Assembly: GCF_004361735.1 (NCBI RefSeq)
Contig: NZ_SNVV01000032.1
Span: 1-46,850 of the forward strand
Direction: 5' to 3'
Origin: Azoarcus indigens
Lineage (GTDB): Bacteria; Pseudomonadota; Gammaproteobacteria; Burkholderiales; Rhodocyclaceae
Length of the DNA: 46,850 nucleotides
Position 1 is the first letter of the stretch; every line of letters starts with the position of its first letter. Shown here piece by piece: positions 21,510 to 40,238 of this stretch. The position numbers were made by a program, and so were the translations under genes. The notes beneath the pieces are model-generated. The model had not been told where the DNA came from. It did no database searches and was given only the letters and a program-made list of their open reading frames with translations.

Positions 21510-21640
21510 TTATGTGGCGGCGGGGGCGTCAAGGCGCGGCGCGCGCCCGTCACCGCCTCGGGGCGGGACGCGGCCGGCGCCGATTGACGGCGGCACCGGT
21601 TGTTTGTTCTGCTAAGCCATCTGCTCGGCGAGGACCTGTC

Positions 21641-22933: not shown

Positions 22934-23008
22934 GCGGCCAGCCGCCGCGTGACCTGCCGCGGTGAAAGCCGCATGCTTGCGCCCAGTGCCCCGCCCAGGA
23001 GTCCGACC

Positions 23009-24059: not shown

Positions 24060-24950
24060 CTACTGGATGCTGGCGCCTTCGCCCAGCAGCGCCTCGAAGG
24101 CCAGCGCCGCGGTGCTCACCGGCCGCTGCGGCAGGCGCAGGCGATAGAGCTGCCGGCGGATGGGCGCCCGCTGCGCGGCCCCGTTCTCCAGCGCCAGCCG
24201 CCGCACCCGACCCAGCGCCAGCTGGTCCCGCGCGCAGATGCGCGGCACCAGGCCGACGCCGGCGCCGGCTGCCACCGCCTGCACCACCGCCTCGTTGCTG
24301 CCCACCTCCAGCAGCGCCGGCGAATCCAGGCCGATCTCCGCCAGCAGGCGCTCGGTGGCCGCCCGGCTGCCGGAGCCCGGCTCGCGCACGATCCAGCGCC
24401 TGGCGGCCAGCGGCGGCGCGGCCTCGCCCGGCGCCTCGCGCGGGCCGACCACGATCATCTCCTCCTGCCGCCACGGCCGGCATTCCACCGGCGCCTCGCC
24501 CGGCTCGCCCTCCACCAGCGCCACGTCCACCGCGCAGTCCAGCAGCAGTTCCACCACCTGCTGCGTATTGGCGGCGCGCACCTGCAGCGATACCCCGGGG
24601 TGGCGATCGCCGAAGGCGACCAGGTAGGGTGGCAGCCAGTAGCTGGCGATGGTGGTGCTGGCGCCTATCACCAGCCGGCCGCGCGCCAGCCCGGCATAGG
24701 CGCGCACCGCCTCGTCCGCCTCCCGCTCCAGCGCGAAGATGCTGCGGCCATAGCCGTACAGCGCCTGGCCGGCCTCGCTGGGGCGGAAGCCGCGGCCCTG
24801 GCGGTCCAGCAGCACGTTGTCGAGCTGGGATTCCAACTCCCGCACCGCCTTGGAGGCCGCCGGCTGGCTGATGCCCAAGGCCTCCGCCGCCCGCGAAAAA
24901 CTGCCGGCCTCGACCACCGCGACGTAGATGCGCAACAGGTGCAGATTCAT
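24060..24950 (-). CDS. LysR-family regulator, YeiE/CysB-like, divergent from yeiH
   Basis: A 296-residue LysR-type transcription factor. The N-terminal winged helix carries VVEAGSFSRAAEALGISQPA and ASKAVRELESQL; the C-terminal domain is a periplasmic-binding-protein-like effector sensor with IGASTTIASYWLPPYL and VREPGSGSRAATERLL. It is divergent from a YeiH-type transporter gene with 97 bp between starts, the classical LysR arrangement (compare yeiE-yeiH), so it probably controls that gene and itself. A near-palindrome overlaps its start codon. The effector may be sulfite or another sulfur species, by analogy with YeiE. Confidence 0.85.
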   Translation of the reverse strand: MNLHLLRIYVAVVEAGSFSRAAEALGISQPAASKAVRELESQLDNVLLDRQGRGFRPSEAGQALYGYGRSIFALEREADEAVRAYAGLARGRLVIGASTTIASYWLPPYLVAFGDRHPGVSLQVRAANTQQVVELLLDCAVDVALVEGEPGEAPVECRPWRQEEMIVVGPREAPGEAAPPLAARRWIVREPGSGSRAATERLLAEIGLDSPALLEVGSNEAVVQAVAAGAGVGLVPRICARDQLALGRVRRLALENGAAQRAPIRRQLYRLRLPQRPVSTAALAFEALLGEGASIQ

Positions 24951-25047: not shown

Positions 25048-26094
25048 ATGGAGATAAGCGCGCCAGGGCCGGGTGTCGGTCTGCGATTCGGCCTCGCCGG
25101 CTGCCTGCTGATCACGCTGGCGGCCGCCGCCCTGGCGGCGGTGCCGGCCTTCGCCCGCCATGGCCTGGGCTGGCTGCCGCTGGCGGTGGCCTTGGGCATG
25201 GTCGCCGGCAACCTGTGGCCGCGGCTGCCCGCCGGCGGCGCCGCCGGCATCGCACTGGCGCGCGGCCCGCTGATGCGCGCCGGCATTGCCCTCTACGGCC
25301 TGCGCATCGGCGCGGACGATCTGGCGCTGGTGGGCTGGAGCGGGGTGGCGATGGCGGCGCTGATGGTGGCTTCCACGCTGGGGCTGGCCCAGGTGCTGGG
25401 CCGCCGCCTCGGCCTGGACCGGGACAGCGCGCTGCTGGTCGGCTGCGGCAGTGCCATCTGCGGCGCCGCGGCGGTGGCCGCGGCCGATGGCGTGCTCGGC
25501 GCCCGGGCGCGGGCGGTGTCGGCGGCGGTGGCGGCGGTGGTGGTGTTCGGCACGCTGGGCATGTACCTGCTGCCGCTGCTGCATCCGCTGCTGGCCGGCC
25601 TGCTCGGCCTGGGCGATGCCGCCTTCGGCCTGTGGCTGGGGCTGACTGTGCATGAACTGGGCCATGTGGTGGCCGCCGCCGCGGCGGTCGGGCCGGGCGC
25701 CGAGGCCAGTGCGCTGATCGAGAAGATGATGCGGGTGATGCTGCTAGCGCCGGCCATGGTGTGGCTGGCGCTGCGCTGCGGCCGGCCGCAGGCGGAGCAG
25801 GCCACGGCTGCGGCGAAGGCCGCGCGCCGGCCGGGGTTGCCGCTGTTCCTGTGGGCCTTCATCGCCGCCATCGTGCTGGCGGTGAGCGGCGCACTGCCGC
25901 AGGCGGTGATGAACTGGGGCGGTGTGCTCGCCCAGCTGCTGCTGGCGGTGGGGCTGGCTGGCCTGGGTGCGGCGACGCGGCTGGCCGACATCCGCCAGGC
26001 CGGCGGCCGGGTATGGCTGCTGGCGGCGCTGCTGTGGGCGTGGTTGCTGGCGGCGGGGCTGTTCATGGTGGTGATCGCCGGGTGGCTGGCATGA
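25048..26094 (+). CDS. yeiH: YeiH family (UPF0324 / PSE) putative sulfate-sulfite exporter
   Basis: A 348-residue, strongly hydrophobic protein with about ten membrane helices, of normal YeiH length. Family motifs visible are the LPLAVALGMVAGNLWP region, RAGIALYGLRI, LLVGCGSAICGAAAVAAADG, LTVHELGHVVAAAAAVG near residue 200, and the C-terminal GLGAATRLADIRQAGG. The family is annotated as putative sulfate exporters with little experimental proof. It is divergent from a LysR regulator and followed on the same strand by a TauE-type permease and the Apr-like operon, suggesting a shared sulfur theme. The ATG at 25048 has a weak AGAAG Shine-Dalgarno. Confidence 0.88.
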   Translation: MEISAPGPGVGLRFGLAGCLLITLAAAALAAVPAFARHGLGWLPLAVALGMVAGNLWPRLPAGGAAGIALARGPLMRAGIALYGLRIGADDLALVGWSGVAMAALMVASTLGLAQVLGRRLGLDRDSALLVGCGSAICGAAAVAAADGVLGARARAVSAAVAAVVVFGTLGMYLLPLLHPLLAGLLGLGDAAFGLWLGLTVHELGHVVAAAAAVGPGAEASALIEKMMRVMLLAPAMVWLALRCGRPQAEQATAAAKAARRPGLPLFLWAFIAAIVLAVSGALPQAVMNWGGVLAQLLLAVGLAGLGAATRLADIRQAGGRVWLLAALLWAWLLAAGLFMVVIAGWLA

Positions 26095-26214
26095 GCGCGG
26101 ACGCTTTCAAGGGATGGGAATCGGGCCGGGACGGACTGGCTGAAGCCGGCCTTGCCCTGGCATTCCAGCGGGGCGCCGAGGTGTGCGGGCTACGGGCTTT
26201 TTTCCTCGCTCCAG

Positions 26215-26228
26215 CCTGTTATAACAGG
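26215..26228. promoter_or_regulatory. Perfect 14-bp palindrome upstream of TSUP gene
   Basis: CCTGTTATAACAGG is a perfect inverted repeat 88 bp before the permease start, in a 221-bp gap with no other gene. TTATAACA-cored palindromes suit dimeric GntR-type regulators; one is encoded two genes downstream, and a related CATAACAAG half-site lies before that gene (27246-27254). Binding is inferred. Confidence 0.45.
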
Positions 26229-26315
26229 TTAGGATGTCTATGGCCTCAGCCGCTGTTCGGCGCTGGCCGTCCGGCATGTCGCCGCCCTTCTTCCCCGTTC
26301 GACCAGGAGCCCCGC

Positions 26316-27155
26316 TTGGAGCAGATCAGCACCGTTTTTGCCGCACACGACGCCGCCACCTGGGCGCTGGTCGCCTTCGCCATCGCCGCCGGCGGCGCGC
26401 TGCGCGGGCTCACCGGTTTCGGTTCGGCGCTGCTGATGGCGCCGCTGCTGTCCCTGGTGCTGCCGGCGCGGGAAACGCTGTGCCTGGTCACCCTGCTGAA
26501 CGCGCTGCCCATGGGCCGCGCCGCCACCGCCGCCGCCAGCCGGCTGGTAGACCGGGAGGTGATGCTGCCAATGACGCTGGCCGCCTTCGCCGGCGTGCCC
26601 TGCGGCATCGCGCTGGTGCATGTGCTGCCGGCGCGGCTCTTCGGCATGGTGATAGGCGGCGCGGTGATGCTCAGCGCCTGCGCGCTGATGGCTGGCCGCA
26701 GCCTGCCCGGCGGGCGTTCGCGGCCGCTGTCGCTGGGCGTGGGGGCGCTGAGCGGCGTGCTCACAGGGCTGGGCGGCGTCGGCGGGCCGCCGGCCATTCT
26801 TTATCTGCTGGGCGTGGAGGCGGACAACCACCGCGCCCGCGCCAACTTCATCGTCTTTTTCGCCTGGCTGTATCCGGTGGCGCTGGCGGCCATCCTGGCG
26901 CTGGGCATGCTGAGCTGGGCGGAGGCGCTGGCCTGGCTGGCGCTGGCGCCGCTGTTCCTGCTCGGCGGCGTGGCCGGCGGGCGTCTGTACGCGCTGATCG
27001 GCCGCGTCCACTTCCGTCCTTTCGTGCTGGCGCTGCTGCTGCTGGCCGGGGCGGTGGCGGCCTGGCCTAAGGCGGCGGAGGCCGCACCGAAGTGGGCGGG
27101 TTACGCACTCCTGCAGTGCGGGATTTCATGCGTAGCATTGCATGAAATTTCATGA
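26316..27155 (+). CDS. Sulfite exporter TauE/SafE family (TSUP) permease
   Basis: A 279-residue inner-membrane permease with about eight helices. Two repeated family motifs are visible: GGALRGLTGFGSALLMAPLL near the N-terminus and LSGVLTGLGGVGGPPAILYL in the second half. TSUP proteins move sulfite, sulfonates or related organic anions. The TTG start at 26316 is preferred because AGGAG lies 8 bases upstream and the first helix follows shortly; longer versions of the frame run back through yeiH and are not credible. The last ~25 residues (from WAGYALLQCG) look like read-through past a conventional end. It lies between yeiH and the GntR gene, close to the ABC/AprA-like operon. Confidence 0.87.
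   Translation: MEQISTVFAAHDAATWALVAFAIAAGGALRGLTGFGSALLMAPLLSLVLPARETLCLVTLLNALPMGRAATAAASRLVDREVMLPMTLAAFAGVPCGIALVHVLPARLFGMVIGGAVMLSACALMAGRSLPGGRSRPLSLGVGALSGVLTGLGGVGGPPAILYLLGVEADNHRARANFIVFFAWLYPVALAAILALGMLSWAEALAWLALAPLFLLGGVAGGRLYALIGRVHFRPFVLALLLLAGAVAAWPKAAEAAPKWAGYALLQCGISCVALHEIS
27123..27154. promoter_or_regulatory. Palindromic TTTCATG/CATGAAA operator cluster
   Basis: CATGAAATTTCATG (27141-27154) is a perfect palindrome, and another ATTTCATG half-site lies at 27123-27130. The cluster overlaps the end of the TSUP gene and lies 124 bp before the GntR start. The surrounding 27140-27190 is AT-rich against the GC-rich background, as expected for a promoter/operator. Confidence 0.5.
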
Positions 27156-27277: not shown

Positions 27278-28051
27278 ATGTCCAGCCGTAAGCAGATCGC
27301 AGTGGTTTCCAAGACTTCGGGCGACGCGATAGACGCGGTTTCGCCGGTGCCGCTGCACACCCAGATACGCGAGGTGCTGCGCCGCCGCATCCTGGATGGC
27401 AGCTATGCGCCGCACTCGCAGATGCCCTCCGAGAGCCAGATGATGGAAGCCTTCGGCGTCAGCCGCATCACCATCCGCCAGGCGCTGGGCGACCTGCAGA
27501 AGGAGGGGCTGATCTTCAAGGTGATGGGCAAGGGCAGCTTCGTCGCCAAGCCCAAGGCCTTCCAGAGCCTGTCGCGGCTGCAGGGCTTCGGCGAGGCGAT
27601 GGCGCCCTCCGGCTACGAAACCTATTCGATGCTGCTGTCCGCCCGCCAGGTGGAGGCCAGCCAGGTGGTGGCGGCGCGCTTCGGTATCCGGCCGGGCGAC
27701 GCGGTGTTCGAGATCCAGCGCCTGCGCTACCTCAACCGCGAGCCCATCTCGGTGGACGTCAGCTACTTTCCGCCCGCCATCGGCGAACGGCTGGTGCAGG
27801 AAGACCTCGCCACCCGCGACATCTTCGTCATCCTCGAGAACGACTTCGGCCACGACCTCACCCATGCCGACCTGCAGATCGAGGCCATTTCCGCCGACGA
27901 ATCGCTGGCGCGCCACCTCGGCACCGACGAGGGCGCGCCGCTGCTGCGCATGGAGCGCATGACTTACGCCGGCGAGCAGCCGCTGGACTTCGAGTTCCTT
28001 TACTACCGAGGCGACGCCTTCCAGTACCGCCTGCGCATAGAGCGCAGCTGA
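27278..28051 (+). CDS. GntR/HutC-family regulator with UTRA domain
   Basis: A 257-residue transcription factor. The winged helix is at residues ~25-95 (PLHTQIREVLRRRILDG; MPSESQMMEAFGVSRITIRQ; GKGSFVAKP), followed by the UTRA effector domain with LSRLQGFGEAM, FEIQRLRYLNREPISVDVSYF and a C-terminal FEFLYYRGDAFQYRLRIER. The start at 27278 follows GAGG; a GTG seven codons earlier is less likely. It lies 50 bp before the AprA-like gene and is the obvious candidate regulator of that operon, sensing a small ligand through UTRA. Confidence 0.9.
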   Translation: MSSRKQIAVVSKTSGDAIDAVSPVPLHTQIREVLRRRILDGSYAPHSQMPSESQMMEAFGVSRITIRQALGDLQKEGLIFKVMGKGSFVAKPKAFQSLSRLQGFGEAMAPSGYETYSMLLSARQVEASQVVAARFGIRPGDAVFEIQRLRYLNREPISVDVSYFPPAIGERLVQEDLATRDIFVILENDFGHDLTHADLQIEAISADESLARHLGTDEGAPLLRMERMTYAGEQPLDFEFLYYRGDAFQYRLRIERS

Positions 28052-28101: not shown

Positions 28102-29832
28102 ATGAAGCGCATAGACCTGCAGTACGACCTCGTCGTCATCGGCGGGGGTACCGGCGGACCGATGGCCGCGGTGAAAGCGAAGGAAAGGAATCCTCAACTC
28201 AAGGTGCTGCTGGTCGACAAGGCCAACGTGAAGCGCAGCGGTGCCATCTCGATGGGCATGGACGGCCTCAACAACGCCGTCATCCCCGGCCATGCCACGC
28301 CGGAGCAGTACGTGAAGGAGATCACCGTCGCCAACGACGGCATCGTCGACCAGGAGGCGGTGATGGCCTACGCCGCCGGCAGCTTCGACATGATCCAGGA
28401 GCTGGACCGCTGGGGCGTCAAGTTCGAGAAGGACGAAACCGGCGACTACGCGGTGCGCAAGGTGCACCATCTCGGCAGCTACGTGCTGCCGATGCCCGAA
28501 GGCCACCACATGAAGAAGATCCTCTACCGCCAGCTGAAGCGCGGCCGGGTGGAGGTGACCAACCGGGTGGTGGTCACCCGCGTGCTCACCGGCGCCGACG
28601 GCGCGGTGAACGCGGTGCTGGGCTTCGACTGCCGCACCGCGGACTTCTACGTCATCCGCTGCAAGGCGGCGGTCATCAGCACCGGCGCTGCCGGCCGCAT
28701 CGGCCTGCCGGCCTCCGGCTACCTGATGGGCACCTACGAGAACCCGACCAACTGCGGCGACGGCCACGCCATGGCCTATCACGCCGGCGCCGACCTGGCC
28801 AACCTCGAGTGCTTCCAGATCAACCCGCTGATCAAGGACTACAACGGCCCGGCCTGTGCCTACGTCACCGGCCCCTTCGGCGGCTTCACCGCCAACTCCA
28901 AGGGCGAGCGCTTCATCGAGTGCGACTACTGGAGCGGCCAGATGATGCTGGAATTCCACCGCGAGCTGCAGAGCGGCAACGGCCCGGTGTTCCTCAAGCT
29001 GGACCACCTGGCGGAGGAAACCATAGGCGAGATCGAGCACATCCTGCACACCAACGAGCGCCCCAGCCGAGGCCGCTTCCACGAGAAGCGCGGCAACGAC
29101 TACCGCAGCGAGATGGTGGAGATGCACATCTCCGAGATCGGCTTCTGCAGCGGCCACAGCGCCTCCGGCATCCACATCAACGCCCGCGGCGAAACTTCGG
29201 TGAAGGGCCTCTACGCCGCTGGCGACTGCGCCAGCGTGCCGCACAACTACATGCTGGGCGCCTTCGTCTATGGCCGCCTGTGCGGCGAGAACGCCGCCGA
29301 GTACTGCGACGGCCGCAACCCGCTGGCGGTGGACGAGGACGCGGTGGAAGCCGAGCGCGCCCGCATCGCCGCGCCGCTGGGCCGGGGCGACGGCCTCACC
29401 CCCTTCCAGATCGAGTACAAGACGCGCCGGCTGGTGAACGACTACCTGCAGCCGCCCAAGATCACCCGCAAGTACGAGATCGCCCTGCGCCGCTTCGACG
29501 AGATCCGCGAGGACGCGCTGCAGATGACCGCCGCCAACCCGCACGAGCTGATGCGGGCGATAGAAGCCCACTCCATCCTCGACTGCGCCGAGATGGCCGC
29601 CCGCGCCTCGCTGTTCCGCACCGAGAGCCGCTGGGGCCTGTACCACCACTACGTCGACTTCCCCGAGCGCAATGATGCCGACTGGTTCTGCCACTCGCTG
29701 CTGAGTAAGGGCGCCGACGGCGCCATGAGCCTGCGCAAGAAGGCGGTGGAGCCCTACATCGTCGCCATCGACGAACAGGAGCGCACCGCCTACCAGCGCC
29801 TGCGCGTCGCCCCCAGCGCCGCTGCCGCCTGA
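28102..29832 (+). CDS. AprA-like FAD flavoprotein (fumarate reductase/APS reductase alpha superfamily)
   Basis: A 576-residue flavoprotein. The FAD-binding GGGTGG is at residues 14-19 with the acidic end of the Rossmann strand at VLLVDKA, followed by KRSGAISMGMDGLNN, which parallels the AprA active-site region more than SdhA/FrdA. A second FAD contact is at GLYAAGDCASVPHN. The C-terminal helical domain (SRWGLYHHYVDFPERNDADW) is also AprA-like. True AprA is somewhat longer and paired with an AprB of about 150 residues; here the ferredoxin partner is only 77 residues. No signal peptide, so cytoplasmic. It heads an eight-gene operon with two ferredoxins, a HEAT protein and an ABC importer. A redox step on an imported sulfur compound is plausible; sulfate reduction is not implied. 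Confidence 0.85.
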   Translation: MKRIDLQYDLVVIGGGTGGPMAAVKAKERNPQLKVLLVDKANVKRSGAISMGMDGLNNAVIPGHATPEQYVKEITVANDGIVDQEAVMAYAAGSFDMIQELDRWGVKFEKDETGDYAVRKVHHLGSYVLPMPEGHHMKKILYRQLKRGRVEVTNRVVVTRVLTGADGAVNAVLGFDCRTADFYVIRCKAAVISTGAAGRIGLPASGYLMGTYENPTNCGDGHAMAYHAGADLANLECFQINPLIKDYNGPACAYVTGPFGGFTANSKGERFIECDYWSGQMMLEFHRELQSGNGPVFLKLDHLAEETIGEIEHILHTNERPSRGRFHEKRGNDYRSEMVEMHISEIGFCSGHSASGIHINARGETSVKGLYAAGDCASVPHNYMLGAFVYGRLCGENAAEYCDGRNPLAVDEDAVEAERARIAAPLGRGDGLTPFQIEYKTRRLVNDYLQPPKITRKYEIALRRFDEIREDALQMTAANPHELMRAIEAHSILDCAEMAARASLFRTESRWGLYHHYVDFPERNDADWFCHSLLSKGADGAMSLRKKAVEPYIVAIDEQERTAYQRLRVAPSAAAA

Positions 29833-29871
29833 GCCCAGGCACCCCCGAACCCGACGCGAGAGGAAACGACC

Positions 29872-30105
29872 ATGACCATCGCCATCACCCCCACCCAGGC
29901 CCCCGTCGCCGTCGACGAGGACAAGTGCATCGCCGAGAAGGGCTGTACCGTCTGCGTGGATGTCTGCCCGCTGGACGTGCTCGCCATTGACCTGGTGAAG
30001 AAAAAAGCCTTCATGCAGTTCGACGAGTGCTGGTACTGCCTGCCCTGCGAAACCGACTGCCCCACCGGCGCGGTGCAGGTCAGCATCCCCTACCTGCTGC
30101 GCTGA
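29872..30105 (+). CDS. AprB-like 2x[4Fe-4S] ferredoxin
   Basis: A 77-residue ferredoxin with two cluster motifs: C-x5-C-x2-C-x3-CP ([15 protein letters not shown]) and C-x2-C-x2-C-x3-CP ([12 protein letters not shown]). The first motif, with its EKGC insertion, resembles AprB, the electron-transfer subunit of APS reductase, but the long C-terminal tail of AprB is missing. It lies 39 bp after the flavoprotein gene, behind a GAGAGGAAA Shine-Dalgarno, and is probably its electron-transfer subunit. Confidence 0.87.
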
Positions 30106-30116
30106 GGAGGGCCGCC

Positions 30117-31058
30117 ATGCAGATGCTCTCCCTTGCCGAACGCCTGGAAAGCGCCGACGCCGAAGTGCGCCGCCTGGCCGTCATCGATCTGCCCTACGGC
30201 GACGAGGACGACATCGTGCCGCTGCTGCTGCCGCGCCTGCTCGACAGCGACGCCGCGGTACGGACCGAAGCGGTGCGCGCCCTCGAAGGCTACGAGGACA
30301 CCCCGGTGGTGGCCGCGCTGGCCACCATGCTGCTGGACGGCGACGCCGGCGTGCGCGAAGCCGCCGGCCAGGTGCTGGCCGAACTCAAGCAGCCCGCCTC
30401 CGCCGCGCCGCTGCTGCCGCTGCTGGAAGGGCAGGCCGCCGAAGTGCGCATGCTGGCCTTCCGCGCGGTGCGTGCGCTGCGGGTGGAGGCCGCCTTCGCC
30501 CCCGCCATGGCGGCGCTGCGCGACGCCGACCCCGGCGTGCGCCGCGAGGCCGTCGGCGTGCTCGGCTACCTGAAGAAAACCGAGGCCATCGGCGAGCTGG
30601 CCGAAGTCGCCGCCCACGACCCGGACGCCGAAGTGCGCCGCATCGCCATCGGCGCGCTGGGCTACGCCAGCGGTGTCAGCGTGCTGCCGGCCCTCACCCG
30701 CGCGCTGGGCGATACCGCCTGGATGGTGCGCGAGGAAGCGGCGCAGACGGTGGGCAAGCTGCGCCTGGGCCCGGCCATTCCCGACCTGGTGAAGGCCATG
30801 GCCGACGACTACTGGCAGGTGCGGGTGAAGGCGGCGCGCAGCCTCGGCCTGCTCAAGGCCGCCGCCGGCCTGCCGGCACTGGTGGAGGCGCTGTCCCACC
30901 CGATGGGCAACCTGCGCAAGGAAGCCGCCATCGCCCTCGGCGAGGTTGGCGACGCCCGCGCCATCCCGGCGCTGGAAAAGGCCCTGCAGGACCCCGACCC
31001 GGACGTGCGCAAGCTCGCCCGCCTCGCCCTCACCGCCATCGGCCTCGCCCAGGCCTGA
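30117..31058 (+). CDS. HEAT-repeat protein
   Basis: A 313-residue all-helical repeat protein. About ten repeats of ~30 residues are marked by a recurring D-x-x-VR-x-x-A signature: [63 protein letters not shown] and PDVRKLA. HEAT arrays of this kind act as protein-interaction scaffolds or, in the CpcE/PBS-lyase type, as chaperones for cofactor attachment. Lying between two ferredoxin genes and 11 bp after the first, it may help assemble or bridge the flavoprotein and iron-sulfur subunits. The ATG at 30117 follows GAGGAGGG; longer upstream versions overlap the ferredoxin in another frame. Confidence 0.88.
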
Positions 31059-31069
31059 AGGAGCCCGCC

Positions 31070-31414
31070 ATGACCTACGTCGTCACCGAAGCCTGCGTGC
31101 GCTGCAAATACACCGACTGCGTCGCCGTCTGCCCGGTGGAGTGCTTCCACGAGGGGCCCAACTTCCTCGTCATCAACCCGGAAGGCTGCATCGACTGCGG
31201 CGTCTGCGTGCCGGAATGCCCGGTGGGCGCCATCTACGCCGAAGACGAGCTGCCCGCCGGGCAGGAAGCCTTCATCGCCCTCAACGCCGAGCTGGCCGCG
31301 GTCTGGCCGCCCATCGCCGAGGCCCGCGAACCGCTGGCGGACGCCGAGCGGTGGGCGGAGGTGGCGGACAAGCGCGCCTTCCTCGACACCGCCGGCGCCG
31401 CACCTCCGGCCTGA
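31070..31414 (+). CDS. FdxA-like [3Fe-4S][4Fe-4S] ferredoxin
   Basis: A 114-residue ferredoxin of the seven-iron type: [18 protein letters not shown] at the N-terminus and [17 protein letters not shown] after it. The motif order, the [13 protein letters not shown] linker and the C-terminal helix with [10 protein letters not shown] match FdxA-type ferredoxins, which carry low-potential electrons. It follows the HEAT gene by 11 bp after a GGAG site. The operon therefore encodes two different ferredoxins, which suggests an electron chain into or out of the AprA-like enzyme. Confidence 0.9.
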
Positions 31415-31573
31415 GACCCTTCAGAACCCGCCCTTCAACCCGCCGGCCCCCCGCCGGACCAGCCGCCCCGGAGGAACATCCGCCACATCCGCTGCGCCCC
31501 GCGAAAGCGGGAAAACAGAGAGAGATACGCAGGAACTCGAACGCACCGCCAACCCCACTGGAAGGACGCCCCA

Positions 31574-33034
31574 ATGAACGCACGTTCCAGAAGCACGCAT
31601 CGAGATCGGCATCACAACAATCACAACATTGCCCGCCACACCCTGGCCACGCTGGCGCTCGCCGCCTGCTGTGCGCTACCGCTGGGCGCCGCCGCCGAAG
31701 TCGTCACCGTCGGCATCGGCACCCAGAACACCACCACCAACACGGTGACCGGCGGCATCGTCATCAAGGAACTGGGCCTGCTCGAAAAGAACTTGCCGAA
31801 GACCGGCAAGTACAAGGACATCACCTTCAAGGTCGAGTGGCAGAACTTCACCTCCGGCCCGCCGGTCACCAACGGCATGGTCGCCAACACCCTGCAGATC
31901 GGCATGATGGGCGACTACCCGCTGCTGGTGAACGGCGCCACTTTCCAGGCCATGCCGGAAACCAAGAGCCGGCTCATCGCGCTGATCGCCTACAACGCTG
32001 AGGGCGCCGGCAACGGCCTGGTGGTGCACAAGGATTCGCCCTACTACGAGCTGGCCGACCTCAAGGGCAAGAAGGTCTCCGTGCCCTTCGGTTCCGCCGC
32101 CCACGGCATGCTGCTGAAGGCGATGGAAGACCGCGGCTGGAAGAGCGATTACTTCGAGCTCTCCAGCCAGAGCCCGGAGGTGGGCACCTCCAGCCTGCAG
32201 GAGATGCGCATAGACGGCCATGCCGACTTCGTGCCCTTCGCCGAGCTGCTGCCCTACCGCGGCTTCGCCCGCAAGATCTTCGACGGCGTCGAAACCAAGG
32301 TGCCCACCTTCCACGGCGTGGTGGTGCGGGAAGACTTCGCCAAGAAGTACCCGGAGTTCGTCGTCGCCTACCTGAAGGCGCTGATGGAGGCCAATGACTG
32401 GGTGCGCAAGAACCCGGTGGAAGCGGCGGCCAAGATCGAGCAATGGACCCGCGTCGAGAAGGAAGTGGCCTACATGTTCCTCGGCCCCAGCGGTGTTCAT
32501 ACGCTGGACCCGACGATCAAGCCCAAGTGGATAGAGACGGTGAAATACGACCACGGCGTGCTGCAGCGCATGGGCCGGGTGAAGGACTTCGACGCCGACG
32601 CCTGGGCGGACGAGAGCTACATCCGCACTGCCTACAAGGAGCTGGGGCTGGACTACGACAAGCAGAAGGCCAGCCTCGCCAACTACGAGATCAGCGGCAC
32701 CGACCCGCTGTGCGGCGGCGCCATCACCAACCCGCGCGAGGCCGGCGAGGTGTGGCTGGACGGCGGCGGCATCACCGCCTACAAGTCCGCCGCCTGCACC
32801 CTGGCGGCGGCCGGCAAGGCGGTGGCCGAGGGCAAGAAGATAGGCGTGGCCTTCGTCTTCGACCACAGCAGCAAGATCAAGCTGTTCGCCGACAAGGCCT
32901 ACTACGCGCTGGGCGGCAAGAGCGGCAAGGAGATCGTGCCCTTCCTGCTGAAGAAGGATGCCGAGGCCTATGTCGCGGCCAACGGCGGCAAGGTCGGCGG
33001 CTACGGCGATGCCGTGGCGCTGGCGGGGAGGTGA
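31574..33034 (+). CDS. ABC substrate-binding protein (NrtA/SsuA/TauA-like) with C-terminal NosL-like extension
   Basis: A 486-residue protein with a signal region at residues ~20-41 (TLALAACCALPLGAAAE). Residues ~42-370 form an SsuA/TauA/NrtA-type solute-binding fold (VTVGIGTQNTTTN; NTLQIGMMGDYPLLVNG; LADLKGKKVSVPFGSAAHG). Such proteins are normally about 320-340 residues. The remaining ~115 residues have DPLCGGAI (Cys380), SAACTLAA (Cys408), KIKLFADKAYYALGGKSGKE and PFLLKKDAEAYVAANGGKVG. These resemble the NosL family, with its CGM-type motif and FxxxxDAExFxxxHGG-type end, so the protein looks like a binder fused to a possible metal-binding domain. GGAAGGA precedes the ATG. The permease and ATPase follow immediately. 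The substrate is unknown; sulfonate, nitrate or a similar oxyanion is likely by family. Confidence 0.88.
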   Translation: MNARSRSTHRDRHHNNHNIARHTLATLALAACCALPLGAAAEVVTVGIGTQNTTTNTVTGGIVIKELGLLEKNLPKTGKYKDITFKVEWQNFTSGPPVTNGMVANTLQIGMMGDYPLLVNGATFQAMPETKSRLIALIAYNAEGAGNGLVVHKDSPYYELADLKGKKVSVPFGSAAHGMLLKAMEDRGWKSDYFELSSQSPEVGTSSLQEMRIDGHADFVPFAELLPYRGFARKIFDGVETKVPTFHGVVVREDFAKKYPEFVVAYLKALMEANDWVRKNPVEAAAKIEQWTRVEKEVAYMFLGPSGVHTLDPTIKPKWIETVKYDHGVLQRMGRVKDFDADAWADESYIRTAYKELGLDYDKQKASLANYEISGTDPLCGGAITNPREAGEVWLDGGGITAYKSAACTLAAAGKAVAEGKKIGVAFVFDHSSKIKLFADKAYYALGGKSGKEIVPFLLKKDAEAYVAANGGKVGGYGDAVALAGR

Positions 33035-33036
33035 GC

Positions 33037-34164
33037 ATGGCGGGCGCGATTTCCCTGCGGGTATTGCGCGGCGAGGGCCGCGCGGCCGAGTCCCTGGCCG
33101 AGGACAGACGCGATGGCGAGGCGGCGCTGGCTGCAGTCGCCTCGCCGCTGCCGGCGGCGGTCGCGCCGGCCGCCGGGCCGGCGGGCCACGGATCGGCCAC
33201 TGCCGCCCAGGCGCAGCCGGCAGACGCGGCGGTGGCTTCCACGGCGGCCTTCGCCGCGGCGGGCACCGCCGCTGCCGAGCTGCTCTCCACCACGCTGCAG
33301 GCGGCGCCGGCACGGGCCGCCGGTGGCCACGCGGCCGCCGCCGTGCCGCCCGCCCCGGGCCGGCTGGCGGGCGCGCTGCGCCGCCAGCTGCCCGGCCTGC
33401 TGCTGGGCCTGGTCTCCATCGGCCTGCTGATCGGCTTCTGGTACCTCGCCACCGCCTATCGCTGGAATTTCTACATCCGCTTCACCAACGTGCCGACGCC
33501 GGGCGAGGTCTTCTCCGGGCTGCTGGCGCTGGCGGGCGACGGCAAGTTCCTCACCAACATCGGCATCAGCCTGCAGCGCATCCTGCTCGGCTTCGCCTTC
33601 GCCACCGTGCTGGGCGTGGTCTTCGGCCTGCTGTGCGGGCGCTACCTGATGCTGCGCCGGCTGCTGTTCCCGGCGCTGGAGGTGCTGCGGCCGATACCCG
33701 CCATCGCCTGGGTGCCCATCTCCATCATGCTGTGGCCCAGCACCGAGTCCAGCATCGTCTTCATCACCTTCCTCGGCGCCTTCTTCCCCATCCTGCTCAA
33801 CACCCTGCACGGCGTCGCCGCGGTGGATGCGGTGCTGCTGCGGGCGGCGCGCTGCCTGGGCGCCGGCGAGGCCTCGCTGCTCGCCCGGGTGATCCTGCCG
33901 GCGGCGCTGCCGCACATCTTCACCGGGCTGGCGGTGGGCATGGGCGTGGCCTGGGTGTCGCTGATCGCGGCGGAGATGATCTCCGGCCAGTTCGGCGTCG
34001 GCTACTTCACCTGGGAGGCCTATTCGCTGATCGAGTATCCGCACATCGTCATCGGCATGCTGGTGATCGGCGTGCTCGGCCTCGCCTGCAGCGGTGCCAT
34101 CCGCCTGCTGTCGCGCATCGCCATGCCCTGGCAGAGCCTGGGCGGCAAGGAGGGCGCGCCATGA
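33037..34164 (+). CDS. ABC permease (SsuC/TauC-like) with long Ala/Pro-rich N-terminus
   Basis: A 375-residue inner-membrane permease. The transmembrane part starts near residue 115 (LLLGLVSIGLLIGFWYLA) and contains ISLQRILLGFAFATVLGVVFG, PIPAIAWVPISIMLW and the cytoplasmic loop RAARCLGAGEASLLARVILPAALPH-type EAA motif. Family members are about 260 residues. The first ~110 residues here are almost only Ala, Pro, Gly and a few charged residues, with no membrane helix. The ATG at 33037 lies 2 bp after the binding-protein stop and no better start exists between it and the first helix, so the extension seems genuine. Its stop overlaps the ATPase start (ATGA). Confidence 0.88.
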   Translation: MAGAISLRVLRGEGRAAESLAEDRRDGEAALAAVASPLPAAVAPAAGPAGHGSATAAQAQPADAAVASTAAFAAAGTAAAELLSTTLQAAPARAAGGHAAAAVPPAPGRLAGALRRQLPGLLLGLVSIGLLIGFWYLATAYRWNFYIRFTNVPTPGEVFSGLLALAGDGKFLTNIGISLQRILLGFAFATVLGVVFGLLCGRYLMLRRLLFPALEVLRPIPAIAWVPISIMLWPSTESSIVFITFLGAFFPILLNTLHGVAAVDAVLLRAARCLGAGEASLLARVILPAALPHIFTGLAVGMGVAWVSLIAAEMISGQFGVGYFTWEAYSLIEYPHIVIGMLVIGVLGLACSGAIRLLSRIAMPWQSLGGKEGAP

Positions 34165-35057
34165 GCACGCTGGCAGCCAGCCTTCCCCCCGGCGTGGCGG
34201 ATACCGCGCCCGGCCGCGGCCATATCGAGATCGACGACGTCACCGTGCGCTTCACTCAGAACGGCGCCGCGCTGGACGCGGTGCGCGGCATTTCCATCGA
34301 CGTGAAGCCGGGCGAGTTCGTGTCGGTGGTCGGCCCCTCCGGCTGCGGCAAATCCACCCTGCTCAACATCGTCGCCGGCTTCCTCAAGCCCAGCGCCGGC
34401 CGCGCCACGGTGGACGGCGCGCCGATACGCGGCCCCGGCGCCGACCGCGGCGTGGTGTTCCAGCAGTACTCGCTGTTCCCCTGGCTGAAGGTGCGGGAGA
34501 ACGTGGAGTTCGGCCTGCGCATGCAGGGCATGGCGCCGGCCGCGCGCTGCGCCCGGGCGCGCACCCTGCTCGGCCTCGCCGGCCTGCTCGCCTTCGAGAA
34601 CCACTACCCGGAGCAGCTCTCCGGCGGCATGAAGCAGCGGGTGGGCATCGTGCGCGCGCTCGCCACCGGCCCGCAGGTGCTGCTGATGGACGAACCCTTC
34701 GGCGCGCTGGACGCGCAGACGCGGGTGGTGATGCAGGAAATCCTCACCAATATGTGGCAGCAGCTGAAGCTGTCGGTGCTGTTCATTACCCACGACATCG
34801 AGGAGTCCATCTTCCTGTCCGACAAGGTCTATGTGATGACCGCCCGCCCCGGCCGGGTGAAGGCGGAGATCCCGATCCCGCTGCCGCGTCCGCGCACGGC
34901 GGAGATGAGCAACTCGCCGGAGTTCATCGCCATCCTGCAGCGGCTGCGCGCCTTGATCCGCGAGGAAAGCCTGGCGGCCATGGGCGGCGAACTGCGCGAC
35001 GGCGGCCTGGGCGGCGACTGGCACCTGGGCAAGGGTGGCGTGGGAGAGGCTTTATGA
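34161..35057 (+). CDS. ABC transporter ATPase (SsuB/TauB/NrtD-like)
   Basis: A 298-residue ATP-binding subunit. Walker A GPSGCGKST is at residues 58-66, the Q-loop at VVFQQYSLFPWLKV, signature LSGGMKQR, Walker B VLLMDEPFGALD and H-loop FITHDIEESIFLSD. The wording closely follows the nitrate/sulfonate/taurine subfamily. Translation is coupled to the permease by ATGA and to the next gene by another ATGA, so the transporter is made as a unit. The C-terminus runs about 40 residues past the last core element (IREESLAAMGGEL). Confidence 0.92.
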   Translation: MSTLAASLPPGVADTAPGRGHIEIDDVTVRFTQNGAALDAVRGISIDVKPGEFVSVVGPSGCGKSTLLNIVAGFLKPSAGRATVDGAPIRGPGADRGVVFQQYSLFPWLKVRENVEFGLRMQGMAPAARCARARTLLGLAGLLAFENHYPEQLSGGMKQRVGIVRALATGPQVLLMDEPFGALDAQTRVVMQEILTNMWQQLKLSVLFITHDIEESIFLSDKVYVMTARPGRVKAEIPIPLPRPRTAEMSNSPEFIAILQRLRALIREESLAAMGGELRDGGLGGDWHLGKGGVGEAL

Positions 35058-35410
35058 GCGCTGTGCCCACATTTGCGCTGGCTGCCTCAGCCGACCCGCG
35101 CGCGGCGCTGCCCCGGGCCGTCACCGACCGGCGTCTGTCCGGCGAACTGGTGATCGAGTGGGAAGACGGCGCGCGCAGCCTGCTGCCCCACGGTCTGCTG
35201 CGCCAGCATTGCCGCTGCGCGGCCTGCGAGCAGGCGCGCCGCAGCGGCCTGCCGCCGCCTGCGCCGGCTGCGTTGAGCGAGATCCGGGCGCTGGCGATAC
35301 AGGGGCTGAACCTGGTCTTCGCCGATGGGCACGAGCGGGGGATCTACCCCTGGGCTTATCTGCGAGCGCTGGGGGATGAGATGGCGGCCGGCGCTGGCGC
35401 GGGAGGCTAG
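35054..35410 (+). CDS. DUF971 family protein
   Basis: A 118-residue protein with the DUF971 (gamma-butyrobetaine-hydroxylase N-terminal-like) fold: LVIEWEDGARSLLPHGLLRQHCRCAAC, a Cys-rich segment (C-R-C-A-A-C), then LSEIRALAIQGLNLVFADGH and GIYPWAYLRAL. The family occurs near iron-sulfur assembly genes and as a domain fused to Mrp-type proteins, and the conserved cysteines suggest metal binding. ATGA overlap with the ATPase gene makes it the last gene of this operon, consistent with a role in maturing the iron-sulfur enzymes. The exact role is unknown. Confidence 0.85.
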   Translation: MSAVPTFALAASADPRAALPRAVTDRRLSGELVIEWEDGARSLLPHGLLRQHCRCAACEQARRSGLPPPAPAALSEIRALAIQGLNLVFADGHERGIYPWAYLRALGDEMAAGAGAGG

Positions 35411-36679: not shown

Positions 36680-37942
36680 TCAACCGTAACGCCGCGCCGC
36701 TTCCACCGCCAGGCCGGCGCCTATGCTGCCGTAGAGGTCGCCTTCCACGCTGCGTGCCTGCGGCAGTTCGGCGGCGATGCGGGCGCGCAGCTGGGCGACG
36801 CCGCTGGCGCCGCCGGTGAAGTAGAGGGTGTCCACCCGGTCGCGGGCGACGCCGGCCTGGGCCAGTAGGCCGGCCACCGTTTCGGCCACCCGGTCCACCA
36901 GCGAGGTGGTGGCGGCGGTGAAGGCGGCGCTGTCGATGGCGTGGGTGAAGCCGGCCTGCAGGCGGCCCAGCTCCAGCGTGGCGCTGGGCGCGGCGGAGAG
37001 GTCGATCTTGGCCTGTTCCACCTGCAGCGCCAGCCAGTGGCCTTCGCGGTTGTTGATCAAGCGGGAGAGGCGGTCCAGCTCTTCGCGCGCCTCGGCATCG
37101 CGGTAGATGTTCTGCAGGTCTGCCCAGGTCTGGCGGGTGTAGGCGCTGTTGATGGTGTGCCAGGTGGCGAGCTGGAAGTAGATGCTGGAGGGGATGGCGG
37201 CGCCGTTCTTCATGCGGCCGCGGTAGCCCAGCAGCGGCATCACGCAGTCCAGGCTGAGGGCGCGGTCGAAGTCGGTGCCGCCGATGTGCACGCCGGCGTT
37301 GCCCAGCAGGTCGTCGCCGCGGTCGGCGCGGCGGGCGCGCTCCGGCGATAGGCGCACCAGCGAGAAGTCGGCGGTGCCGCCGCCGATGTCGGCGATCAGC
37401 ACCAACTCTTCGCGCGTCAGCGAGGCTTCGTAGTGCAGCGCAGCGCCTATGGGCTCGAACTGGAAGCTGACTTCGCGGAAGCCGACGCGGCGGGCGATGT
37501 CTTCCAACGTGTCCTGCGCCTTGCGGTCGGCGGCGGCGTCCTCGTCCACGAAGTGCACCGGGCGGCCGAACACCGCCTGGTCGAAGCCGCGGCCGGCGGC
37601 GGTTTCAGCGCGGCGCTTGAGTTCGCCGATGAAGCTGGCGAGCAGTTCGCGGAAGGAGAGGGCGCGGCCCAGCACCTCGGTGTGGCCGTCGATGAGACTG
37701 CTGCCGAGCAGGCTCTTCAGTGCCCGCATCAGCCGGCCTTCGTAGCCTTCCAGGTACTCGGCCAGGGCGTCGCGGCCGTAGTGGGTGCTGTCCTCGTCGG
37801 CGTTGAAGAACACCGCCGAGGGCAGGGTGGGCTTGCCGTCTTCCAGCGGCAGCAGCGTGGGCAGGCCGGGGCGTAGCCAGCCGGCGGTGGAATTGGAGGT
37901 GCCGAAGTCGATGCCGCAGGCGCGGGCGGGTGCGGAAGTCAT
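36680..37942 (-). CDS. Hsp70-family protein (YegD-like)
   Basis: A 420-residue actin-fold ATPase. Phosphate 1 is GIDFGTSNSTAGW at the N-terminus, phosphate 2 LIADIGGGTADFSLV near residue 200, the adenosine motif YFTGGASGVAQL, and GSIGAGLAVEA near the end. It covers the nucleotide-binding domain but lacks the DnaK substrate-binding and lid domains, as in YegD-type proteins. The start at 37942 places the ATPase motif close to the N-terminus; the frame extends further upstream but the sequence there is low-complexity. Its clients are unknown, and no DnaJ or GrpE is nearby. The 264 bases between it and the hydrolase hold no credible gene. Confidence 0.87.
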   Translation of the reverse strand: MTSAPARACGIDFGTSNSTAGWLRPGLPTLLPLEDGKPTLPSAVFFNADEDSTHYGRDALAEYLEGYEGRLMRALKSLLGSSLIDGHTEVLGRALSFRELLASFIGELKRRAETAAGRGFDQAVFGRPVHFVDEDAAADRKAQDTLEDIARRVGFREVSFQFEPIGAALHYEASLTREELVLIADIGGGTADFSLVRLSPERARRADRGDDLLGNAGVHIGGTDFDRALSLDCVMPLLGYRGRMKNGAAIPSSIYFQLATWHTINSAYTRQTWADLQNIYRDAEAREELDRLSRLINNREGHWLALQVEQAKIDLSAAPSATLELGRLQAGFTHAIDSAAFTAATTSLVDRVAETVAGLLAQAGVARDRVDTLYFTGGASGVAQLRARIAAELPQARSVEGDLYGSIGAGLAVEAARRYG

Positions 37943-38295
37943 GCGAAGGCCCGGGGCGTAAAGGGCAGGGATGCTACCGCCGCCTCCGGCCGCCCGCCAG
38001 CCCCGGCACCCCTCGGATATACGCGGCGGCTGCCCTTTTCGGGCGCTGGCGGCCGGGGCGGAGGCCGCCTGACGGGCAAGGGGGAGGGCGGCGTTCCGGG
38101 AAGTGGGCAAGCCTGCAGCTCACGCCGGCGGGGGCGCCGGGGCCCGGCTTGTTACATCTTTCCTCTGTATTAGGTCTTATATATGTCAAGCGAGTTGTAT
38201 GGATTGCAACACAGCACCGGGAAGCCAGCAGACAGGCGGATTGGTGCACCGCAAATAAGGTTGTTTGGTGGCATTTCTGATAATTCCAAGACAAT

Positions 38296-38419: not shown

Positions 38420-38493
38420 CAAACAATAAATCAGGTGGACGACGTCCACACCCGGCGGCGTACCCGCCGAGGATGAACGGGAGTGAGAAAACA

Positions 38494-40155
38494 ATGCAGG
38501 CCTGGGAACAACTATATGACCCGGCTGGCAACCTCTGGTTGTCCAGCCTGATCGCGCTGCTGCCGATCGCCTTCTTCTTCGTCGCCCTCGCGGTGCTGCG
38601 GATGAAGGGCTGGATGGCCGGCACCATCACCGTGATCATCGCGCTGCTGGTGGCGCTGTTCTTCTACCGGATGCCGCTGGAGCGGGCGCTGGCTTCCGGT
38701 GTGTACGGCTTCTTCTACGGGCTGTGGCCGATCGCCTGGATCATCATCGGCGCGGTCTTCCTCTACAAGGTGTCGGTGAAGACCGGCCAGTTCGACATCA
38801 TCCGCGCCTCCATCCTGTCGGTGACCGAAGACCAGCGCCTGCAGATGCTGATGGTGGGCTTCTCCTTCGGTGCCTTCCTGGAAGGCGCGGCGGGCTTCGG
38901 CGCGCCGGTGGCCATCACCGCCGCGCTGCTGGTCGGTCTGGGCTTCAAGCCGCTGTACGCCGCCGGCCTGTGCCTGATCGTGAATACCGCGCCGGTGGCC
39001 TTCGGCGCCATGGGCATCCCCATCATCGTCGCCGGCCAGGTGACCGGGCTGGATGCCTTCCATATCGGCCAGATGGCGGGCCGCCAGCTGCCCTTCCTGA
39101 CCATCATCGTGCTGTTCTGGATCATGGCCATCATGGATGGCTGGCGCGGCGTGAAGGAAACCTGGCCGGCGGTGATCGTGGCCGGCGGCTCCTTCGCCAT
39201 CGTCCAGTACCTCACCTCCAACTTCATCGGCCCCGAACTGCCGGACATCACCTCCTCGCTGGCCTCGCTGGTGTGCCTGACGCTGTTCCTGAAGCGCTGG
39301 CAGCCGAAGCGCATCTTCCGTTTCGAGGATGCCGACGCCCACCTGGATGCCAAGGTGCAGCAGGAAGCCCACAGCCATTACAGCGCCGGCCGGATCATCA
39401 AGGCCTGGTCGCCCTTCCTGATCCTGACCGCCATGGTCACCATCTGGAGCGTGAAGCCGTTCAAGGCCCTGTTCGCCAAGGGCGGCGTGCTGGAGAGCTG
39501 GATCATCAAGTTCCCGGTGCCCTCGCTGGACGCGCTGGTGCAGAAGATGCCGCCCATCGTCGCCAAGCCGACGCTGTACGAGGCGGTGTACAAGTTCGAC
39601 TGGTTCTCCGCCACCGGCACCGCCATCCTGTTCGCCGCGCTGATCTCCATCGTGCTGCTGCGCATGCGTCCGGCGGAAGCGGTGAAGACCTTCGGCGAAA
39701 CGGTGTACGGGCTGCGCATGCCCATCTACTCCATCGGCATGGTGCTGGCCTTCGCCTTCATCGCCAACTACTCCGGCCTCTCCGCCACGCTGGCGCTGGC
39801 GCTGGCACACACCGGACACGCCTTCACCTTCTTCTCGCCCTTCCTCGGCTGGCTGGGCGTGTTCCTGACCGGTTCGGATACCTCGGCCAACGCCCTGTTC
39901 GCTGCGCTGCAGGCCAACACCGCACACCAGATCGGCGTTTCCGACATCCTGCTGGTGGCGGCCAACACCACCGGCGGCGTCACCGGCAAGATGATCTCGC
40001 CGCAGTCCATTGCCATCGCTTGCGCGGCGGTCGGCCTGGCCGGGAAGGAGTCGGACCTGTTCCGCTTCACCGTGCGCCACAGCCTGGTGTTCTGCACCCT
40101 GGTGGGCATCATCACCACGCTGCAGGCCTACGTCTTCCCCTGGATGATTCCCTGA
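38494..40155 (+). CDS. lldP: L-lactate permease
   Basis: A 553-residue secondary transporter with about 12-14 helices, taking up L-lactate with protons. It starts [25 protein letters not shown], matching the LctP/LldP N-terminus (MxxWxQxY). The family core [23 protein letters not shown] is present, as is [15 protein letters not shown] near the C-terminus. The ATG at 38494 is chosen from this homology; an in-frame ATG at 38473 would add seven residues and cannot be excluded. It is the first gene of lldP-lldR-lldD, the same order as in E. coli, and LldR-type operators lie in front. Confidence 0.93.
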
Positions 40156-40238
40156 GGCCATGGGCCAGCGTTGCGCTTCCATGCTGTTTCGGGCACGAGG
40201 AGCAGCCGCTCGCGCGGCGGCTGCCGGAAAATAGCGGG

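Follow-up and report, generated by a model that had tools for sequence, protein, structure and literature searches.

A conserved operon of Azoarcus indigens joining an AprA-like flavoenzyme to a dedicated TauA-type importer, with a possible role in releasing sulfite from a sulfonate-type anion

The AprA-type adenosine 5'-phosphosulfate (APS) reductases and MtPAPSR, the 3'-phosphoadenosine 5'-phosphosulfate (PAPS) reductase of Methanothermococcus thermolithotrophicus, both form sulfite, and the account given of them in PMC10322725 proposes for MtPAPSR and AprA a nucleophilic attack of flavin N5 on sulfur. The same account describes MtPAPSR as an AprA-type enzyme serving assimilation and proposes Trp42 of the enzyme as an electron carrier. 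Two described systems deal with sulfite itself: in Salmonella, YeiE-controlled YeiH is presented in PMC12880088 as the main determinant of in vitro sulfite resistance, and TauE from Cupriavidus exports sulfite when C2-sulfonates are metabolised (Weinitschke 2007, as cited in PMC8472584 and PMC10413263). Here we describe an eight-gene operon (positions 28102-35410) on a 46,850-nucleotide stretch of Azoarcus indigens contig NZ_SNVV01000032.1 (the window), which encodes an AprA-like flavoprotein of the PRK08275 family, an AprB-like 77-aa ferredoxin, a HEAT-repeat protein, a second (FdxA-type) ferredoxin, a TauA/SsuA-type ATP-binding cassette (ABC) importer and a DUF971 protein (Table). Our reading, which we hold with slightly more doubt than belief, is that the ferredoxin-fed flavoenzyme and its importer release sulfite from a small sulfonate-type anion.

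All eight open reading frames (ORFs) are on the same strand, each with a start and a stop codon, and the distances between them are, in order, 39, 11, 11, 159, 2, -4 and -4 bp; a GntR/UTRA regulator gene ends 50 bp before the flavoprotein gene. The arrangement given in a preliminary description of this DNA (short gaps, ATGA overlaps, one 159-bp gap, the preceding regulator) was borne out in all its coordinates. The family assignments are backed by Pfam or NCBIfam, except for the NosL-like tail of the binding protein, which is below the Pfam cut-off; the DUF971 protein had no NCBIfam match. To estimate conservation we scanned GTDB genome contigs, where at least 594 stretches encode relatives of the flavoprotein (the best 80 loci were kept, some of them cut by contig ends), and an even draw of 398 Pseudomonadota genomes plus 14 control genomes. 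The flavoprotein exceeded its cut-off in 21 of the 398 and in none of the 14 control genomes. For neighbourhood counts, made with our own profiles and thresholds, these 21 carriers and six further relatives formed a set of 27 genomes, in which the window was compared with regions of up to 19.5 kb from the other 26.

Within 10.5 kb of the flavoprotein gene the 27 genomes had the ferredoxin in 27, the HEAT protein in 27, the DUF971 protein in 26, permease and ATPase in 24 and the binding protein in 23 cases. At the best 80 loci the corresponding numbers were 80 for the AprB-like ferredoxin, 78 for HEAT, 67 for DUF971 and 64 for the binding protein; a GntR gene was near the flavoprotein at 79 of these loci and in 16 of the 27 genomes. 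Gene order varies between lineages, thus the adjacency reflects more than recent common descent. The operon is real and conserved beyond chance (a lack of joint conservation had been named in the preliminary description as a refuting outcome), and the family has members in proteobacteria, cyanobacteria and actinobacteria. The annotated plasmid records that we viewed label the flavoprotein 'fumarate reductase/succinate dehydrogenase'. In the Acidithiobacillus caldus plasmids NC_015854.1 and NZ_CP026330.1 the flavoprotein match spans only 24% of the protein, and pTcM1 (L091; L and G numbers are our handles for loci and genomes) carries the full gene.

The importer is dedicated to the flavoenzyme. 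At a threshold of 1e-50 the binding-protein profile matched in 20 of the 21 Pseudomonadota genomes with the flavoprotein and in none of the 377 without it (Fisher P ~1e-32, not corrected for kinship), and in 19 of the 20 genomes the starts of the two genes were at most about 5 kb apart. All 23 neighbouring binding proteins in the 27-genome set scored at least 470 bits, and 59 of the 64 found at the best 80 loci scored at least 300 bits, the other five being generic paralogues below 100 bits. Four of the 27 genomes had no neighbouring binding protein: in G400 the contig ends, in G028 a copy is 2.9 Mb away, G324 has none at 1e-50, and in G413 a copy is located 9.3 kb upstream, mostly beyond the stretch compared. 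Among 13 plasmid loci chosen across taxa, ten had the dedicated binding protein. Both sequence and fold place the binding domain nearest to TauA and SsuA (top fold match TauA 6ssy, TMt 0.79, TMq 0.50; mean predicted local distance difference test score, pLDDT, of the model 80.4), and it is below the cut-offs of the SsuA_fam model TIGR01728 (119.1 against 163.5 bits) and the taurine model TIGR01729 (74.4 against 304.25 bits). The binding protein had been called NosL-tailed; this held in so far as PF05573 matched at E up to 0.01 in eight of 13 aligned binding proteins, the window's included, but the window's own tail reached only 21.5 bits, below the cut-off of 24.0. Next to two cyanobacterial plasmid clusters there are LysR regulators whose C-terminal half repeats the TauA-like binding domain of the importer (Table), and because of this fused domain the imported solute probably doubles as the inducer.

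The flavoprotein matches the NCBIfam model NF006131 (PRK08275) above cut-off. The title of this model reads 'fumarate reductase/succinate dehydrogenase flavoprotein subunit'; with the sdhA/frdA model TIGR01812, however, the flavoprotein obtained 166.5 bits (cut-off 567.3). It also remained below the cut-off of the aprA model TIGR02061 (161.2 against 641.75 bits), and the APS-reductase-alpha model NF005331 gave 281.9 bits, which is under its cut-off of 557 and above the value for sdhA/frdA. A sequence search of solved structures returned MtPAPSR alpha as the best match (1.3e-55), followed by A. fulgidus AprA, ahead of FrdA/SdhA; with a sequence profile the values were 1.3e-81 for MtPAPSR alpha, 2.9e-59 for A. 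fulgidus AprA, 7e-38 for E. coli SdhA and 4e-35 for D. gigas AprA. In a quick tree of 43 rows with long branches, the 25 PRK08275 rows split off (SH-aLRT support 93), as did 12 AprA proteins together with MtPAPSR (100) and five flavin adenine dinucleotide (FAD) proteins of the A. indigens genome (97). Judged from this tree, whose outcome had been named beforehand as a test, the PRK08275 family falls inside neither the AprA nor the SdhA/NadB-like rows. No AprA was found elsewhere in the A. indigens genome at 1e-30.

The alignment behind these comparisons has 41 positions that are invariant across the 38 PRK08275, AprA and MtPAPSR rows, and 13 of the residues concerned, N57, K245 and D246 included, occur in neither the SdhA-like nor the NadB-like rows. 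N57 is the counterpart of AprA Asn74. H352, compared here with the active-site histidine of AprA, is likewise invariant in 38 of 38 rows, and the SdhA/NadB-like rows have it too. Arg265 and Trp234 belong to the sulfite site of AprA; they are present in all 13 AprA/PAPS reductase rows, whereas all 25 PRK08275 rows have leucine (L243) and tyrosine (Y212) in their places. All 25 PRK08275 rows share Cys237, Cys252, Cys349 and Cys495, the stretches around the first three align with pocket regions of AprA, and the loop past residue 115 differs from that of AprA. His242 of SdhA, which together with an arginine motif is presumably catalytic there, aligns with Asn241, and the motif itself (NRLxxNS) is absent from the flavoprotein. 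The 77-aa ferredoxin was below the aprB cut-off of 135.65 bits, matching profile positions 2-64 of 132, and it aligns with D. gigas AprB (3gyx_B), CWxC motif included. The pair thus has an AprAB-like architecture with an altered pocket. The term AprA/B-like, introduced by the preliminary description, is moderately supported for both subunits by the models, the structures and the AprB alignment, the margin in plain identity being only a few percent. By architecture we would class the pair with the AprAB/PAPS reductase kind, even though it fails the membership tests for AprA.

The remaining operon genes can be arranged around this pair. In Tsukamurella (L123) a single protein of 893 aa (PRK13800, 1568 bits, cut-off 1196) comprises both the flavoprotein and the HEAT protein, and its gene is adjoined by ferredoxin and importer genes; the HEAT protein is probably a structural subunit of the complex. 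A gene for ferredoxin-NADP reductase (FPR) was at most 10 kb from the flavoprotein gene in ten of the 27 genomes, compared to 0.20 expected. Thirteen of the best 80 loci carry FdxA, and ten of them have FPR downstream, two (L061, L075) have a relative of the GltB-like NADPH oxidoreductase of L091, and the last one (L083) is cut off by the end of its contig. An enzyme of this GltB-like type, related to PRK06567 by NCBIfam in the case of L091 (10574-14035), takes the place of FPR at L061, L075, L091 and L134; L075 and L134, whose contigs are equally long, are probably one contig. In the genus and family of the window (G000, G399, G400, G405) FdxA is present and FPR is not next to it. DUF971 was not found in three cyanobacterial loci (two of them checked by Pfam), which have an Mrp/NBP35-type iron-sulfur ATPase instead; this fits a maturation role, and the DUF971 protein is a probable factor of iron-sulfur cluster maturation or transfer.

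Directly upstream of the operon there are three genes which the preliminary description did not mention: a YeiH-family gene, a TauE-family gene and a YeiE-like LysR gene divergent from yeiH. In the 27 genomes PF03601 (YeiH) has 30 copies, and in 11 genomes (five of 15 genera) a copy is within 10 kb of the flavoprotein gene, compared to 0.13 expected (kinship uncorrected). None of the 50 SsuD-family genes in the same genomes has YeiH within 12 kb, nor is any of them within 12 kb of the flavoprotein gene. YeiH and TauE adjoin two of the three cyanobacterial clusters, and TauE is present at four of the 13 chosen plasmid loci. The YeiH-family protein of the window is just under the cut-off of TIGR00698 (210.9 against 232.6 bits); its LysR neighbour obtained 160.3 bits with the YeiE model (cut-off 480), the best model being 'selenium metabolism-associated LysR' (194.1 bits, cut-off 250). 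The upstream sulfite transporters probably belong with the gene set. At G423:C15:77113-78021 and G012:C1:11989-13326, both near the flavoprotein, a copy of YeiH and one of the binding protein were counted as having single in-frame stops.

According to our proposal the TauA-like ABC transporter would import the anion, and electrons would pass from NADPH through FPR, whose gene lies elsewhere in the A. indigens genome but adjoins the operon in certain relatives, to FdxA, the AprB-like 77-aa ferredoxin and finally the FAD of the AprA-like subunit. Reduced flavin N5 would then attack the sulfonyl sulfur, in line with what has been proposed for the reductases of APS and PAPS, and sulfite would be released by decay of the adduct. 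The HEAT protein would be a structural subunit of a soluble complex, DUF971 (Mrp in cyanobacteria) would load the iron-sulfur clusters, and toxic sulfite would be removed by YeiH and TauE. The substrate should have a good leaving group on sulfur, as in S- or N-sulfonates or in a sulfonate beside a carbonyl; for a plain alkanesulfonate the reaction would be more difficult in mechanistic terms. A still more specific version, which we regard as doubtful, is that an AprA-type flavin has been retooled, with the arginine replaced and Cys237, Cys252 and Cys349 invariant, for an NADPH/ferredoxin-driven, O2-free cleavage of organosulfonates to sulfite, and that this constitutes a widespread alternative to SsuD/TauD. 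We give preference to sulfite release because the neighbourhood and co-occurrence results support it. The preliminary description had suggested that the system takes up a small anion, probably one containing sulfur, and carries out redox chemistry on it. This suggestion is supported, as neither of the two refuting outcomes named there occurred, and the recurrence of the NADPH-ferredoxin reductase and of a sulfite-resistance-type transporter nearby sharpens it, the substrate remaining a deduction.

It must be noted that a number of observations weigh against sulfite release. The kinship to AprA is distant: mean identity of the PRK08275 proteins is 28.7% to MtPAPSR, 26.3% to AprA, 23.7% to SdhA-like and 23.0% to NadB-like proteins, so AprA and SdhA-like proteins differ by only a few percent in this respect, and another FAD protein of the genome (L002, G000:C1:200823-202373) is, with 26.4% identity, as near as AprA. 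D. gigas AprA ranks under FrdA/SdhA in the sequence search and under SdhA in the profile search. A fold search with the AlphaFold model of the flavoprotein had 8a8o (MtPAPSR) in first place, and FrdA/SdhA chains followed with nearly equal TM-scores; the model is of low confidence (mean pLDDT 64.7, below 50 at 196-218 and at 236-353, the active site) and, being weak at the pocket, was left unused for claims about the active site. The root of the tree was set by choice, for which reason the tree gives no sisterhood with AprA and was withdrawn as a proof of it. The replacement of Arg265 and Trp234 means that substrate binding must differ from that of APS reductase. Biological reductive desulfonation was not found in our literature search, and SsuD, serving ordinary sulfonates, is over its cut-off elsewhere in the A. 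indigens genome.

The genomic context is also not uniform. The FPR gene of A. indigens sits on a different contig (C1) from the operon. FdxA is lacking nearby in 67 and FPR in 70 of the best 80 loci, and each of them is absent from the neighbourhood in 17 of the 27 genomes. No YeiH was nearby at 73 of the best 80 loci and in 16 of the 27 genomes, and the alphaproteobacterial plasmid loci L090 and L124-L127 are without it. The enrichment of TauE is weak (four of the 27 genomes by our own profile, all of them of the window's genus or family, compared to 0.75 expected from Pfam counts). Since YeiH, FPR and FdxA are missing at most loci, the sulfite argument is carried by betaproteobacterial loci of the window-like and FdxA types, by six genomes of two other genera (G159, G111, G365, G384, G200, G012) and by the cyanobacteria. 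Of the 16 loci among the best 80 that have no binding protein, 13 were checked (all except L013, L056 and L085); these are all Burkholderiaceae, and 12 of the 13 genomes had no full copy genome-wide, so that their flavoenzyme has to rely on other importers or on a substrate of internal origin. The preliminary description, which had spoken of a self-contained system, needs correction in three points: the sulfite transporters upstream probably belong to the set, FPR is on another contig, and some Burkholderiaceae have the flavoenzyme without the dedicated importer.

The reaction could also run in the reverse direction, the flavoenzyme oxidising sulfite or an imported sulfur oxyanion and delivering the electrons via the ferredoxins and FPR to NADP+ as a cytosolic enzyme, either for detoxification of sulfite or for saving energy, with YeiH exporting sulfate. 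In favour of this, AprAB enzymes are able to oxidise sulfite, the operon has sulfite transporters and a YeiE-like regulator next to it, and TIGR00698 is titled putative sulfate exporter. We nevertheless think this unlikely: the TauA-type importer, found in 20 of 21 genomes, would be left without a desulfonating enzyme at the locus, where SsuD-family genes are lacking, and Arg265 is lost in all 25 rows.

To the same degree improbable, in our view, is that the imported solute contains no sulfur (examples would be a nitro compound or one with an unsaturated bond, a phosphonate or some different anion) and that the flavoenzyme reduces or oxidises it while YeiH and TauE export some other small anion. 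Although structure titles show that binding proteins of this fold take thiamin precursors, nitrate, bicarbonate and 2-aminoethylphosphonate, and YeiH is not nearby in the majority of the 27 genomes, the closest binding proteins are TauA and SsuA, the models and structures of A. fulgidus and methanogen AprA/PAPS reductase outscore FrdA/SdhA, the SdhA histidine and arginine motif are absent, and the association with YeiH is strong.

That the operon encodes a kind of APS or PAPS reductase acting on activated sulfate, next to a transporter that imports sulfate or one of its esters, has a precedent in the assimilatory role of MtPAPSR, but we consider it very unlikely in view of the low aprA score, the replaced Arg265 and Trp234, the different loop past residue 115, the TauA-type importer and the fact that none of the operon families activates sulfate. 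A succinate dehydrogenase or fumarate reductase of the ordinary sort, as implied by the title of NF006131, by the nearly equal TM-scores of the weak model and by H352, which aligns with a histidine of SdhA/NadB-like proteins as well, can practically be dismissed, because the sdhA/frdA score is low, His242 and the arginine motif are missing, the operon families include no SdhC/D-type gene, the flavoprotein is outside the SdhA/NadB-like rows, and a likely SdhA (L003, named by eye only) is encoded elsewhere in the genome.

If sulfite release is true, bacteria have an oxygen-free, ferredoxin-driven route to sulfite from imported sulfur compounds, built from the sulfate-reduction family, which would be relevant to sulfur supply in soils and low-oxygen niches and would correct a misleading database title carried by the flavoprotein relatives. 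Since the genome has SsuD, no TauD-family match at 1e-10 and no AprA, the operon is probably a supplement to ordinary sulfonate use and not a duplicate of it. Ligand binding to the dedicated importer offers a direct way of testing what the substrate is. NCBI has already catalogued the gene family under the misleading title; the gene set is undescribed in the open-access literature that we searched (most subscription papers are outside that search), and the proposed function is new relative to it.

Several other candidates were tried and rejected. A literature search gave nothing for a thiocyanate-dehydrogenase cluster, the first guess. A copper link through the NosL-like tail was abandoned, cysteines 380 and 408 being present in only three (those of the window, L012 and L124) of the 13 binding proteins in the alignment and PF05573 being under its cut-off, and so was the SAO organometal system, for which every cut-off was missed (SaoA 263.4 against 360, SaoP 149.9 against 295 and SaoX 25.0 against 300 bits). 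The nodule operon Bphy_7232-37 of Paraburkholderia phymatum, labelled 'alkane sulfonate ABC transporter' in PMC8305402, was set aside, no P. phymatum being among 54 plasmid matches at 1e-40. Term searches of the main texts of Rhodococcus IGTS8 and Gordonia sulfur papers gave no such flavoprotein. The acesulfame sulfatase cluster, as outlined in PMC10413263, has a TauA-type importer, an amidase and TauE, and in the text concerned 'ferredoxin' and 'fumarate reductase' occur 0 times. Oxygen control of the FNR type was rejected as well: three Crp/Fnr proteins beside the alphaproteobacterial loci L124, L126 and L127 are without the N-terminal cysteine cluster.

The coordinates of the operon and of the genes associated with it are collected in the Table. 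Elsewhere in the window there are genes for a sigma-70-type factor (regions 2 and 4, - strand) and a patatin-like phospholipase (+ strand) at 20921-24058, an Hsp70-family protein at 36680-38110 (- strand), an L-lactate permease and, downstream, an FMN-dependent dehydrogenase at 38473-42178, apparently an unrelated neighbour, and a molybdopterin-binding oxidoreductase subunit at 44121-46331. In a Nostoc plasmid (L122:11692-14873) the cluster is interrupted by HAD, HAD, methyltransferase, GNAT and VOC genes, the VOC gene being flagged in PLSDB as a distant FosA8-like match (43% identity). An amidase-family gene is near the cluster in L122, in Methylocystis (L125) and in L143 (G289), with GNAT genes also in the first two; this might point to the substrate being an amide or amine.

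Table. Operon genes, associated genes of the window and regulator fusions of cyanobacterial plasmids
Feature	Position	Strand	Basis or remark
AprA-like FAD enzyme subunit (PRK08275 family)	28102..29832	+	NF006131 1060.8 bits, cut-off 587
AprB-like 77-aa 2x[4Fe-4S] ferredoxin subunit	29872..30105	+	TIGR02060 aprB 36.8 bits, E 3e-9
HEAT-repeat protein, probable structural subunit	30117..31058	+	PF13646
FdxA-type ferredoxin, probable electron donor	31070..31414	+	NF045490 160 bits, above cut-off 135
TauA/SsuA-type solute-binding protein, NosL-like C-terminal domain	31574..33034	+	PF09084 above cut-off
ABC permease	33037..34164	+	PF00528; SaoP, NtrB, TauC, SsuC models all under cut-off
ABC ATPase	34161..35057	+	PF00005; SaoA 263.4, taurine ATPase 253 bits, both under cut-off
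DUF971/GBBH-like_N protein, probable iron-sulfur maturation/transfer factor	35054..35410	+	PF06155 65.9 bits, cut-off 22.8
GntR/UTRA transcriptional regulator	27278..28051	+	PF00392 + PF07702; alternative GTG start possible at 27257
LysR regulator, YeiE-like, divergent from yeiH (accessory)	24060..24950	-	PF03466 + PF00126
YeiH-family putative sulfite/sulfate exporter (accessory)	25048..26094	+	PF03601 238.7 bits, above cut-off 24.5
TauE/SafE-family putative sulfite exporter (accessory)	26316..27155, start uncertain, ORF 25761-27155	+	PF01925 80.5 bits, cut-off 32.6
LysR-binding-domain fusion, 666 aa	L120:8661-10661	-	possible solute sensor
LysR-binding-domain fusion, 678 aa	L121:7388-9424	-	possible solute sensor

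It is instructive to compare the operon with the systems it most resembles. MtPAPSR (8a8o), the closest solved structure, likewise pairs an alpha subunit carrying FAD with a beta subunit that is a small ferredoxin with two clusters, and it forms sulfite, but it keeps the Arg and Trp for which PRK08275 has Leu and Tyr, and in its description, as far as given in PMC10322725, neither an importer nor a HEAT subunit, FdxA or a DUF971 protein is named as a partner. Dissimilatory AprAB shares the domain plan, the AprB-like ferredoxin and Asn74, whereas the operon flavoprotein is outside the AprA rows, the aprA and aprB cut-offs are missed, the substrate pocket is different, and no sat, aprM or qmo is among the operon families. 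SsuABCDE and TauABCD have an importer of the same TauA/SsuA type, but the operon has a ferredoxin-flavin enzyme in place of the O2-dependent oxygenase, and no SsuD-family gene within 12 kb in the 27 genomes; the statement of the preliminary description that the operon is neither sulfate respiration nor ordinary sulfonate desulfonation thus agrees with our results. The transporters of the NCBIfam SAO (Sao) families are similar in that the ATPase and permease of the operon match SaoA and SaoP best and the binding protein matches SaoX weakly, but all three cut-offs are missed. The YeiE-YeiH sulfite resistance system of Salmonella, in the outline given in PMC12880088, resembles the YeiH-family gene of the window beside its YeiE-like LysR gene; in the window, unlike in Salmonella, the LysR protein is under the YeiE cut-off, YeiH is just under TIGR00698, and a flavoenzyme operon lies adjacent.

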